Source of the DNA: Fluviicola sp. | Lineage (GTDB): Bacteria; Bacteroidota; Bacteroidia; Flavobacteriales_D; Crocinitomicaceae | Direction: 5' to 3' | Length of the DNA stretch: 59,051 nucleotides | Assembly: GCA_002734085.1 (NCBI GenBank) | Contig: NVXV01000010.1 | Location: 1 to 59,051 of the forward strand | Notes under the pieces: model-generated | Seen by the model: the letters and a program-made list of their open reading frames with translations, nothing else | Database searches by the model: none | What the model was told of the DNA's origin: nothing | Shown: piece by piece, positions 55,575 through 59,051 of the stretch | Layout of the letters: each line of letters starts with the position of its first letter | Position numbering within the stretch: position 1 is the stretch's first letter | Translations under genes and position numbers: made by a program

Positions 55575-57344
55575 TTAACCTTCACCATATATTTTCTTCA
55601 CACGGTCAGCGTGAATCTCCATGATAACTTTTCTTTTTAACTTCAATGTAGGCGTTAATTCACCACCTTCAACAGACATTTCTTCAGGTAGTAATTCAAA
55701 CTTTTTTAGTTGCTCATAATTACCAAATAAATTATTGTATTGATCTAACTCTTTTTGAACTCTACTGATGATTGCTTCATTTTCAATTAACGTTTTATTC
55801 GTTTCATCTTTTAATGAAACATTTTTACGTTTCGCCCATTCTCTCATGTAGTCGTAAGAAGGTACAATCAATGCTGCAGGGTGCTTTTCACCTTCACCAA
55901 TTACCATTATTTGTTCAATGAATCTCGACTCCTTAAATTTGTTTTCCATCACTTGAGGAATGATATACTTACCACCAGAAGTTTTGAAAATTTCTTTTTT
56001 ACGATCGGTAATTTTTAAAAACTTATTATCTACAATTTCACCAATATCTCCTGTGTGGAACCAACCGTCGTCATCTAAGACTTCTTTCGTTTTTTCAGGT
56101 TGATTGTAATAGCCAATCATCACATTTGGCCCTTTTACCAAAATCTCACCATCTTCTGCAATTTTCACTTCAACACCTTCTATAGTGGTTCCGACAGAAC
56201 CGAATTTAACTCCATTTTTCAGGCAGTTTACAGAAATTACAGGAGATGTTTCAGTTAAACCATACCCTTCCAAAATTGGAATCTCTGCTGCCATGAAAAT
56301 TCTCGCCAATCTAGGTTGGAGCGCTGCAGCACCAGAGGCAATGGCTTTTACGTTTCCACCTAATGCTTCTTGCCATTTAGAGAAGATTAATTTCCTGGCA
56401 ATTTTCAACTTGAATTTATACCAGCCTGACTTGCCTTCAAGTTCGTACTGATTTCCAATTTTCACCGCCCAAAAGAATAATGATTTTTTGATACCACTCA
56501 AATCATCACCTTTCGCCATTATTTTCTCATATACCTTTTCGATAAGCCTTGGTACAGCAGTGAAAATTTCTGGTTGTACTTCGCGAATATTATCTCCAAT
56601 AGTATCCATACTTTCAGCAAAGTGAATCGAACAACCCACTTTCATATATAAATAATGGATCATTCTCTCGTAAACATGACAAACAGGTAAGAAACTAAGC
56701 GAACTACTATGACTGTCCGCGGGGATCCTTGGTTCGCAAGCTAATACATTCGATAAAATATTGTTGTGAGAAAGCATAACACCTTTTGGATTACCAGTAG
56801 TTCCTGAGGTGTAGATCATAGTTGCTAAATCTTCGTTTTTAATCGGTTCTTTTAATTTTTCAACTTCCGATTGATCAATTTTATCAGCCGATTGAATTAT
56901 TTCTGTCCAGTTAGGAGCACCTTGTACTTCATCAAAAGAGTACAATTTTTCAAGTGTAGGTAAATCCGACTTTATACTATTAATCTTATTATATAACTCT
57001 TCATCACCCGTTACACATAGCTTAATACTCGCATCGCCAAATATATATTTATAATCTTTTGTAGAGATATTTGGATAAATGGGAACTCCGATAGCTCCAA
57101 TTTGCTGAATTCCAATATCCATGATATTCCATTCAACTCTATTACTTGATACAAGCCCAACTTTATCACCAGGTTTAATACCTAGAGCCAATAATCCACG
57201 AGAAACTAAATTTGCTTTTTTTAGAAAATCCTCCGTGCTCACACTCTCCCATTTGCCGTTAATTTTTGTGGAGAACATAACTTCTTGAGGAAAATGTTCC
57301 ATTTGATAATAAGGGACATCAAATAATCGTTGAAGTGTTTTCAT
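55575..57344 (-). CDS. Long-chain fatty acid-CoA ligase (AMP-forming)
   Basis: 589 aa. ANL superfamily motifs: P-loop-like MIYTSGTTGNPKGVMLSH, AVPRLIEKVYEK, EGYGLTETSPVISVN, DGWFHTGDIGEIVDN, and ITDRKKEIFKTSGGKYI with the hinge. FLPVCHVYERM and the insertion after it are typical of long-chain (FadD/ACSL-type) enzymes. It activates fatty acids to acyl-CoA at the membrane. Single gene on the minus strand. The 265-base gap to the sigma factor contains no clear promoter for either gene. Confidence 0.93.
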   Translation of the reverse strand: MKTLQRLFDVPYYQMEHFPQEVMFSTKINGKWESVSTEDFLKKANLVSRGLLALGIKPGDKVGLVSSNRVEWNIMDIGIQQIGAIGVPIYPNISTKDYKYIFGDASIKLCVTGDEELYNKINSIKSDLPTLEKLYSFDEVQGAPNWTEIIQSADKIDQSEVEKLKEPIKNEDLATMIYTSGTTGNPKGVMLSHNNILSNVLACEPRIPADSHSSSLSFLPVCHVYERMIHYLYMKVGCSIHFAESMDTIGDNIREVQPEIFTAVPRLIEKVYEKIMAKGDDLSGIKKSLFFWAVKIGNQYELEGKSGWYKFKLKIARKLIFSKWQEALGGNVKAIASGAAALQPRLARIFMAAEIPILEGYGLTETSPVISVNCLKNGVKFGSVGTTIEGVEVKIAEDGEILVKGPNVMIGYYNQPEKTKEVLDDDGWFHTGDIGEIVDNKFLKITDRKKEIFKTSGGKYIIPQVMENKFKESRFIEQIMVIGEGEKHPAALIVPSYDYMREWAKRKNVSLKDETNKTLIENEAIISRVQKELDQYNNLFGNYEQLKKFELLPEEMSVEGGELTPTLKLKRKVIMEIHADRVKKIYGEG

Positions 57345-57587
57345 AGTCTGTTATTTTTTAATACGATAAACTTACTAAAAAAAATGAAAGTTGATTCAAT
57401 ATTTATGATTTAGAGGTTAATATAATGACCTGAAATGAATTTAAATAGTTAAAAAGAGAGTTTAACTTCATTCTTCATTTTAAGAAAACTGGGATATTTA
57501 TCGTCTAATAATCAAACATTTTCGTTATTTTCTCGTATTTTTATAAAAAGATTTTGAACGGGGTGTAACTTTTGCCCTTGTTAAATT

Positions 57588-57602
57588 GTTTAACTGTTAA
57601 AC
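57588..57602. promoter_or_regulatory. Inverted repeat GTTTAAC-T-GTTAAAC just before the ECF sigma gene
   Basis: A perfect 7-bp inverted repeat with one central base, ending 8 bases before the TTG start of the sigma factor gene. It could be an operator, or a structure that limits translation. Confidence 0.4.
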
Positions 57603-57609
57603 GCGCGGT

Positions 57610-58092
57610 TTGAATAGAAAGGATTACAATAATGTGGTTAAAGAACATGCCTCCAATTTATTTGGGTATGTGTTCAAGTACCTTCGAAACTCGGAGGATA
57701 GCCATGATATTGTACAGGATGTCTTTGAAAAACTGTGGAAGAATAGAAAGAAAGTCGAAGTAGAAAAAGCAAAAGCATGGATGTTCAAGACAGGACACAA
57801 TACTTTGATTAATTTTTCTAAGAAGAAACAACGTACAACGTATCACACAGAAATGATACCTGAACGTGGAAAAGTAGATCACTCTTTTGAAAACAAAGAG
57901 ATTATTGATTTAGCACTTTCGCTTCTTCCACCAATGCAAAAGAGTATCGTTCTATTGAGAGACCTAGAAGGATATGCTTATGATGAAATTGGTGAGATTT
58001 TAGAAATCTCAGATAGTCAAGTCAAAGTATATCTGTACAGAGCACGTAAGAAAATGAAAAAACAGTTAAAGGATTTAACAATAGTTCAATGA
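57610..58092 (+). CDS. ECF-type RNA polymerase sigma factor
   Basis: 160 aa with a TTG start (no closer ATG is usable without losing region 2). Region 2: LFGYVFKYLRNSEDSHDIVQDVFEKLWKN. Linker: KVEVEKAKAWMFKTGHNTLIN. Region 4: ALSLLPPMQKSIVLLRDLEGYAYDEIGEILEISDSQVKVYLYRARKKMK. It is a standard-length Bacteroidota ECF factor. Its last bases overlap the start of the next gene as ATGA, so the pair is co-translated; the partner has an anti-sigma-type N-terminus. Autoregulation is likely but no promoter of the ECF type can be recognised. Confidence 0.93.
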   Translation: MNRKDYNNVVKEHASNLFGYVFKYLRNSEDSHDIVQDVFEKLWKNRKKVEVEKAKAWMFKTGHNTLINFSKKKQRTTYHTEMIPERGKVDHSFENKEIIDLALSLLPPMQKSIVLLRDLEGYAYDEIGEILEISDSQVKVYLYRARKKMKKQLKDLTIVQ

Positions 58093-59051
58093 GTAACCCA
58101 AGTTTTGAAAATATTGATCGTTGGTTCTTCGAGTACACCGAAGGCAACCTTTCGACTTCTCAAGTTGAGCAGCTTGAAAACTTCATTTCTGCTCACCCAG
58201 AATTACGAGGCGAGCTTGAAGTATGGAAAGATGCGCACGTATCTGTAGAAGAAAACAATTTTTCTACTGCTTCTTTATTGAAGCCAACACCATTCTATGC
58301 TAACGCTCGAGTTTTAGCAATAATGATAATTAGCCTTTTGGTTGGAAGTTATCTGATTTATGATAACCTAGGAGTCGATTCACTTTACTCTAAGTCAAGT
58401 AATGATTTAGCAATTATTTCAGTGGAAGATGATGATTTTTTTGAAAACAAAATTTTAAATTCTATTTCAAATAATAACATAAAATCTTCTGAACAACAAG
58501 AGGTGAGAGAGCAAGATAATAATGTTGTTTTACATGATATAAATAAAAATGAATCTCAAATAGCAAAGACTTCGAATAACTCTTTCGTAGAATCATATTC
58601 GAATATAAAGAATGTTGTAAACAATTCATCAATCGATTATAAGGAGGATTTATCAAAACGAGAAGTAATTGAAAGTCAAAATGAGGATAATACTAAAAAT
58701 GTTTCTTCAGACGGACTGGGCGAAGTTATATCTTATATAAATGGAGAGAGATTTATTAATGAGAGTAATAATGACTTGGCAGAACAAAATAACGACAAGA
58801 AATCAGAGGTGAAACATAATTCGTTCAAGCGAAAATTAGAAAAGACACTTAGGAAAATAAAACGTATGGCTGATCAGCCTATTGCTTTGCGAAACACAAA
58901 AGACCAATACTTTCATGCACCGATGATGACAGGTTATAACGCTAACTTTGGAATGGTAGGTTCAGCATTAGGAAACCGAATTCAAACAACGTCAAGAAAT
59001 CAATGGGCAGGAGAAAAGAACCAACAGTTGATGAATACAGTCTCTTGGGAT
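58089..59051 (+). CDS. Membrane-spanning anti-sigma factor fused to a PorP/SprF-like barrel (partial, runs off right edge)
   Basis: 321 residues are visible without a stop. Residues 1-60 are a small acidic cytoplasmic domain (RWFFEYTEGNLSTSQVEQLE, HPELRGELEVWK), as in Bacteroidota anti-sigma factors. A single membrane helix follows at about 74-92 (RVLAIMIISLLVGSYLI). Residues of about 95-268 form a low-complexity Asn/Ser/Glu/Lys-rich stretch without hydrophobic segments, suited to cross the periplasm. From about 272 it reads QYFHAPMMTGYNANFGMVGS, then RNQWAGEK...NTVSWD, which resembles the start of PorP/SprF family outer-membrane proteins of the T9SS. The ATG overlaps the sigma factor stop. 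The barrel call rests on about 50 residues. Confidence 0.75.
   Translation, partial: MSNPSFENIDRWFFEYTEGNLSTSQVEQLENFISAHPELRGELEVWKDAHVSVEENNFSTASLLKPTPFYANARVLAIMIISLLVGSYLIYDNLGVDSLYSKSSNDLAIISVEDDDFFENKILNSISNNNIKSSEQQEVREQDNNVVLHDINKNESQIAKTSNNSFVESYSNIKNVVNNSSIDYKEDLSKREVIESQNEDNTKNVSSDGLGEVISYINGERFINESNNDLAEQNNDKKSEVKHNSFKRKLEKTLRKIKRMADQPIALRNTKDQYFHAPMMTGYNANFGMVGSALGNRIQTTSRNQWAGEKNQQLMNTVSWD

Follow-up and report, generated by a model that had tools for sequence, protein, structure and literature searches.

The window, that is, the whole stretch of 59,051 nucleotides of Fluviicola sp. DNA that was analysed, closes on two plus-strand genes, an ECF sigma factor gene (57610-58092) and a second gene that begins at 58089, and the two share an ATGA overlap, as the preliminary description had stated. 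The window end at 59051 adjoins a single ambiguous base N at 59052, and because the window stops one base before this N, the second gene had looked truncated. An early stop past 59051 had been named as one outcome that would speak against a fused protein; instead, the frame has no stop after 59051 and is open to 59789 on contig G000:C22, giving a protein of 566 residues. The codon holding the N was kept as X, the only X in the sequence. The features of the locus are as follows.

57564..57590, plus strand: promoter-like element TGTAACTTTT-N11-ATTGTT, presumed target of the operon's own sigma factor (a consensus, not a mapped promoter)
57610..58092, plus strand: ECF sigma factor, 160 residues, TTG start (Sigma70_r2, E = 3.1e-13; Sigma70_r4_2, E = 2.1e-16)
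58089..59051, plus strand, continuing to 59789 on G000:C22: fused anti-sigma-like/PorP-SprF protein, the first 321 of 566 codons (frame, Pfam)
58089..58238, plus strand: conserved N-terminal domain, residues 1-50, presumed to bind the sigma factor (alignment, model)
58305..58361, plus strand: inner-membrane helix, residues 73-91 (mean hydropathy 2.0, the sole such window; a helix in the model)
58362..58889, plus strand: periplasmic tether, residues 92-267 (68% N/S/Q/T/E/D/K/G/P; pLDDT mostly below 40)
58824-58868, plus strand: basic stretch within the tether, residues 246-260 (RKI.RM in the alignment consensus)
58890..59051, plus strand, continuing to 59786 on the contig: start of the PorP/SprF barrel (PF11751, residues 281-551)
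59805-60761 on G000:C22, plus strand, outside the window: stand-alone PorP, 318 residues (PF11751, 195.7 bits; TIGR03519, 226.5 bits)

The sigma factor scored 120.3 bits against NF058625, for which the cut-off is 130. Divergent from its gene, the minus strand at 55575-57344 encodes a 589-residue protein that by eye resembles a long-chain acyl-CoA synthetase, and proteins with similar openings lie at the same place in L218, L220, L223, L224 and L226.

Anatomy of the fused protein

The fused protein runs from a helical N-terminus through a single inner-membrane helix and a tether to a PorP/SprF barrel. In an alignment of 25 fused proteins, M1, E18, G19, L21, F32 and W46 are invariant in the N-terminal part, and the AlphaFold2 model folds this domain into three helices (pLDDT block means 52-83). 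The preliminary description had proposed searching the complete protein with profiles for PorP/SprF and for anti-sigma domains, and the outcome was divided: PF11751 matched above its cut-off, TIGR03519 fell below its own, and the N-terminus matched no anti-sigma family in Pfam or NCBIfam. The label "anti-sigma" therefore rests on gene order and layout. Searching for solved homologues by sequence returned none for the fusion profile or the N-terminal profile, and one chance-level match for PorP. The N-terminal profile matched in 49 of 296 genomes of the phylum (E ≤ 0.001); 14 of the matching frames were read by eye, L168 on the wrong strand, and in none was a junction with another kind of barrel evident.

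We noted that a single hydrophobic window above 1.6, starting between residues 67 and 80, is present in 26 of 27 fused proteins; in L040 the peak is 1.38 at residue 63. Across the 27 proteins, K and R average 2.5 in the 12 residues before the helix and 0.7 in the 15 residues after it, with the bias reversed in L041 and level in four sequences. This distribution of charge is in keeping with a cytoplasmic N-terminus. The helix lies 177 residues from the barrel. In the homologous fused proteins the tether is likewise rich in N, S, Q, T, E, D, K, G and P, and its length ranges from 165 to 269 residues (median 194).

The AlphaFold2 model was built from three sequences (pTM 0.43); in it the N-terminal part forms three helices, the membrane segment is helical too, most of the tether is unstructured and a barrel closes the chain. 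A lack of barrel strands in the remaining sequence would have counted against the proposal; the model has 14 C-terminal strands, at a mean pLDDT of only 47.6. When the model was compared with known structures by Foldseek, the matches listed were outer-membrane barrels, among them 8gl6_F, a chain of a T9SS complex, at rank 16. The Pfam PorP_SprF match to PF11751 covers residues 281-551 (E = 4.9e-17, 62.8 bits, cut-off 22.3), whereas the NCBIfam TIGR03519 score of 63.4 bits is under the cut-off of 90.55, which marks the barrel as a divergent PorP/SprF member. We therefore prefer to class the whole protein as a predicted bearer of a PorP-type barrel rather than as a PorP. PF11751 was matched at E ≤ 0.1 by 23 of the 25 aligned fused proteins, and the barrel is conserved over its length in the same alignment.

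The fused barrel and the stand-alone PorPs differ at their ends. All 20 complete PorPs that were examined (18 from cassettes, 2 stand-alone) finish in C-X11-C-P-[STA]-F. By contrast, 22 of the 27 fused proteins have no cysteine at all and the other five have one each; none of the 27 has a cysteine in the tail, so the two-cysteine PorP tail is absent. According to the available text of PMC12635249, the Cys-X-Cys tail of Flavobacterium johnsoniae SprF is required for normal track movement and dispensable for bringing SprB to the surface, and SprF Cys326 bonds to GldK. By analogy, the PorP tail may be likened to this hook, although its C-X11-C spacing differs from the published C-X-C motif of SprF. 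GldK of the genome under study has a GFRC cysteine at residue 670, which, going by the FGE fold, may be the equivalent of F. johnsoniae Cys343.

Distribution of the cassette and its second PorP

Of 59 relatives searched, 47 had a match, stand-alone PorPs counted in. The fusion has full-length homologues in each of the nine remaining genomes of the genus and in many members of the family; one of this genus that carries the cassette is the culturable Brumimicrobium aurantiacum (Crocinitomicaceae, L044). The 33 loci examined comprised 27 distinct fused frames of more than 500 residues, three repeats (L042-L044), one locus cut by a contig end (L037) and two stand-alone PorPs (L038-L039). When 399 genomes of the order were searched with a profile, 248 had a match at E ≤ 1e-40 (stand-alone PorPs among them), and a fused frame of at least 500 residues was found in at least 145 of the 399, at least 131 of these in the family of the source genome and at least 14 in four others. 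For several genera of that family, no fused frame was among the matches listed. A class sample of 395 genomes yielded 12 matches at E ≤ 1e-60, six coming from f77, a family that lies outside the order, and in a phylum sample of 395 genomes the fusion appeared only in the source genome itself; the sample searches scored three candidates per genome, so absence is soft.

With 27 distinct homologous frames, PF11751 matches in 23 of 25 and at least 145 genomes of the order, the fused layout is more than chance. It is scarcely credible that the ambiguous base or an assembly error created the long frame: the frame does cross the N in the present assembly, but the same fused frame recurs, mostly without inner stops, in each of the nine further genomes of the genus and in many more besides. 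The anatomy originally claimed, namely a cytoplasmic anti-sigma-like end, a single inner-membrane helix, a long low-complexity tether and a PorP/SprF barrel beside an ECF partner, agrees with the full sequence and its homologues, and the fused architecture has good support from sequence.

The expectation that the same fusion would be found beside ECF genes in related genomes was borne out, with the sigma gene 5' of the fusion in 28 of 28 loci (the 27 fused loci and the truncated L037). In the loci read, the genes form a three-gene cassette in which the ECF sigma factor is followed by the fusion and then by a stand-alone PorP. Of the 27 fused loci, 18 contain the downstream PorP whole and 6 only the part of it that precedes the contig edge, and in the other 3 the contig stops short of it; contig breaks at this point would be expected if two near-identical PorP copies exist. 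The order of the three genes was the same in 12 of 12 longer regions, hand-chosen from families f1, f3, f10, f11 and f77, and the genes beyond them differ. The sigma gene as called has a TTG start at a conserved position in 27 of 28 loci (that of L040 was called further upstream) and in 9 of 10 cassettes of an additional set (G458 has ATG). This weak start may keep the sigma factor below its anti-sigma factor.

Close PorP copies were sought in 27 fusion-bearing genomes (15 plus 12 hand-chosen). Two complete copies were found in 18 of them, one in the cassette and one between gldK and porU. At the threshold used, G008, G009, G011, G031, G034, G576 and G602 gave none, G597 gave three fragments and G012 gave one. 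The missing copies may be collapsed repeats. In their mature parts, the operon and gldK-linked PorPs are at least 98% identical in 8 of the 18 pairs and at least 88% identical in 16; the lowest values are 81.6% (G028) and 73.7% (G014). In 15 of 18 cases (11 of 12 plus 4 of 6), the two copies of a pair resemble each other more closely than the operon copy resembles the operon PorP of any other genome compared. A protein tree of 12 pairs draws the two copies as sisters in 10, leaves G005 unresolved and does not unite those of G028. DNA identity within the pairs spans 69.0 to 99.8%, hence gene conversion and protein constraint are both possible. Among 12 hand-chosen genomes of the family that are without the fusion, 10 have one PorP copy and G017 has two. 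In G021, the remaining one of the 12, the gldK-linked PorP has four stops and an intact copy lies at a distance from gldK (L214 on contig 28 and L196 on contig 14).

One locus departs from this arrangement. In L216 (3095-8692 of G012 contig 189), gldK lies directly 3' of the sigma factor, fusion and PorP genes, and the PorP there is the single copy found in G012. The gene order may be genuine, with the cassette merged into the T9SS core locus, or the assembler may have joined two loci across PorP copies that are nearly identical. Because of the latter possibility, we did not count this locus as proof.

A promoter-like element upstream of the sigma gene

Upstream of the sigma gene, TGTAACTT is present in 27 of 27 loci with upstream sequence, and ATTGTT follows 13 bases later, exactly in 23 of the 27. 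L025, with 13 upstream bases only, was left out of this count. The same -35 part stands in all ten cassettes of the additional set, six of them new loci and one from f77. The start of operon transcription would lie just 3' of the ATTGTTTTA box.

Allowing up to one mismatch, ten genomes of the genus held 18 sites, of which 10 are before the operon (9 exact) and 8 elsewhere. A reversed control gave 9, so the element stands above background only at the operon. None of the 18 gldK-linked PorPs is preceded by the element. A wider regulon was considered and rejected: with up to two mismatches, the 14-base pattern matched 109 times in the genome, against 130 for the reversed control. A second exact 14-base match in the source genome, at C22:128171-128197, falls inside a dnaK-like gene on the opposite strand. 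Read most simply, these site counts point to an operon that regulates itself and has few other targets, if any. They suggest that the sigma factor mainly drives its own operon.

Known relatives and a possible working of the circuit

Comparison with the Dma proteins of Bacteroidota, drawn in the preliminary description, proved apt. The available text of PMC13088901 gives Dma proteins the same four parts, namely an N-terminal anti-sigma part, one membrane helix, a long disordered tether and a C-terminal barrel, together with an adjacent ECF sigma gene and a restriction to Bacteroidota, features that the fusion, with its presumed anti-sigma part, shares. Their published output comprises vesiculation and PULs (PMC13088901, available text). 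By its predicted helix, tether and barrel, the fused protein appears Dma-like. The preliminary description gives the Dma proteins of Bacteroides thetaiotaomicron a different barrel. Compared with Dma proteins by their description only, the fusion would differ in having a PorP/SprF-family barrel and in sharing an operon with a PorP shuttle. Within the literature searched, as far as its text was available, a PorP/SprF barrel on an anti-sigma factor was not reported; any claim to priority is limited in that the founding Dma paper (PNAS, 2024) lay outside the scope of the search.

Like the PorP/SprF shuttles described in the available text of PMC9143113, PMC12618676 and PMC12635249, the fusion has a PF11751 barrel match over its length. 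Unlike them, it has a tether and membrane helix in place of the signal peptide, has no two-cysteine tail and falls below the TIGR03519 cut-off. Two regulatory systems are also comparable, again from the available text of their sources. In the SigP-PorXY system of Porphyromonas gingivalis, an ECF sigma factor likewise controls T9SS components, and feedback from T9SS operation has been proposed; there, however, a two-component system and PorA act on SigP, whereas here one chain would join the outer membrane to the sigma factor (PMC7712824). The SM6 promoters of Flavobacterium psychrophilum are, like the presumed promoter here, ECF-type, and lie before T9SS genes and one sigma/anti-sigma pair; they carry a CGT box at -10, in contrast to the ATTGTTT of the present element (PMC9723704).

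The source genome also encodes a split relative. In L152 (5681-8151 of G000:C31, minus strand), an ECF sigma gene with a TTG start overlaps a gene for a 353-residue anti-sigma-like protein, which is followed by a separate barrel gene. The 353-residue protein matched the N-terminal profile twice and has no barrel, and the separate protein matched OMP_b-brl_2 (32.8 bits, cut-off 27). The -10 part of its upstream site is unlike that of the cassette element. This split system suggests one way in which the fusion could have arisen. A second ECF gene, in L011 on the minus strand of G000:C21 (16916-18217 and 18214-18780), overlaps the gene for a 433-residue protein in which a helix-like stretch and a low-complexity linker accompany a PKD domain (PKD_4, 38.8 bits). 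By eye, this PKD protein seemed to end in a type B CTD, but no such domain was reported by Pfam or by NCBIfam, and the candidate was dropped.

The available text of PMC12618676 describes PorP/SprF barrels as shuttles for type B cargo, with cargo and shuttle apparently required in stoichiometric amount and a single shuttle able to serve several orphan cargos. According to PMC9143113, in its available text, PorP binds PG1035 and SprF binds SprB. In the source genome, 41 type B CTDs score above the Pfam cut-off, but stand-alone PorP/SprF genes number 19; a PorP lies directly downstream of 14 of the 41 CTD genes and is missing from that place in the other 27. The operon PorP and the gldK-linked PorP may serve such orphan cargo. 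A shuttle shared among orphans would be depleted by demand, and a hookless shuttle placed as sensor on an anti-sigma factor would then read the shortage directly. The fusion may report T9SS status, a reading that gains support from the PorP shuttle gene in third place in the cassette, whose product is close to the gldK-adjacent copy in most genomes that have two copies.

The reading we favour is that the fused protein is a Dma-type anti-sigma factor whose sensor is a hookless PorP/SprF shuttle, which would gauge PorP shortage or cargo load and induce spare PorP; we hold it tentatively, as a shade short of probable. For the signal, the binding of the sigma factor and its release, we infer the following course. 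The N-terminal domain would hold the sigma factor at the inner membrane, and the fused barrel would be seated in the outer membrane, a form of the type B cargo shuttle that lacks the hook and is tethered to the inner membrane. When free PorP is scarce, the sensor barrel would be occupied instead, either by type B cargo on its way out of the translocon or by the machinery with which PorP normally engages. The occupied state would travel along the tether, by pulling or by exposure of a cleavage site, and free the sigma factor. The freed sigma factor would transcribe its own operon, providing a second, inducible source of PorP and closing a homeostatic loop.

An alternative is that the fusion senses outer-membrane assembly, with its barrel as a test substrate for the barrel-assembly machine, such that slow insertion would lead to degradation of the unassembled barrel, loss of the anti-sigma factor and release of the sigma factor; the PorP output would then reflect that PorP-type barrels are those at risk. 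An anti-sigma factor that ends in a barrel needing insertion fits this view, which could also cover Dma proteins with other barrels (PMC13088901, available text). General assembly genes would, however, be expected among the targets, whereas the element rises above background at the operon alone and its sole client is one PorP; moreover, the barrel family of sensor and client coincides in the loci read. We consider this alternative unlikely.

Sensing of force is another option: contact with the moving T9SS track that needs no cysteine would pull the tether, alter the hold on the sigma factor and report whether the T9SS motor is running. The available text of PMC12635249 records that SprF without its tail cysteines keeps short track-bound movements, and the fused barrel is without the tail and tied to the inner membrane instead. 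Yet the sequence has no feature of a mechanical switch, and a tether that varies over 165-269 residues does not suggest a tuned spring, which makes this option quite improbable. It is less probable still that the fusion senses an outside ligand or a surface adhesin, with PorP merely the shuttle of one adhesin and unrelated to general T9SS supply, for although PorP/SprF proteins form cognate pairs with type B adhesins (PMC12618676, available text), the operon PorP has no type B CTD gene just before it, and in most genomes its nearest relative is the core gldK-linked copy.

Returning to the reading of the fused protein as a Dma-type anti-sigma factor with a hookless shuttle as sensor, the cassette may form a self-referencing supply gauge, in which the barrel would read the occupancy of shuttles, possibly as tension from the moving T9SS track, and a near-identical copy of the core shuttle would be made from a regulon of one operon; we regard this as possible, with doubt somewhat the stronger. 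Through a single chain, the conserved three-gene cassette would couple transcription to the state of a shuttle in the outer membrane. Its one promoter and one client, both predicted, would make it an unusually small circuit in which to test a dual-membrane anti-sigma factor, where sensor and client are both PorP-family barrels, set apart by a tail and a tether that can be tested.
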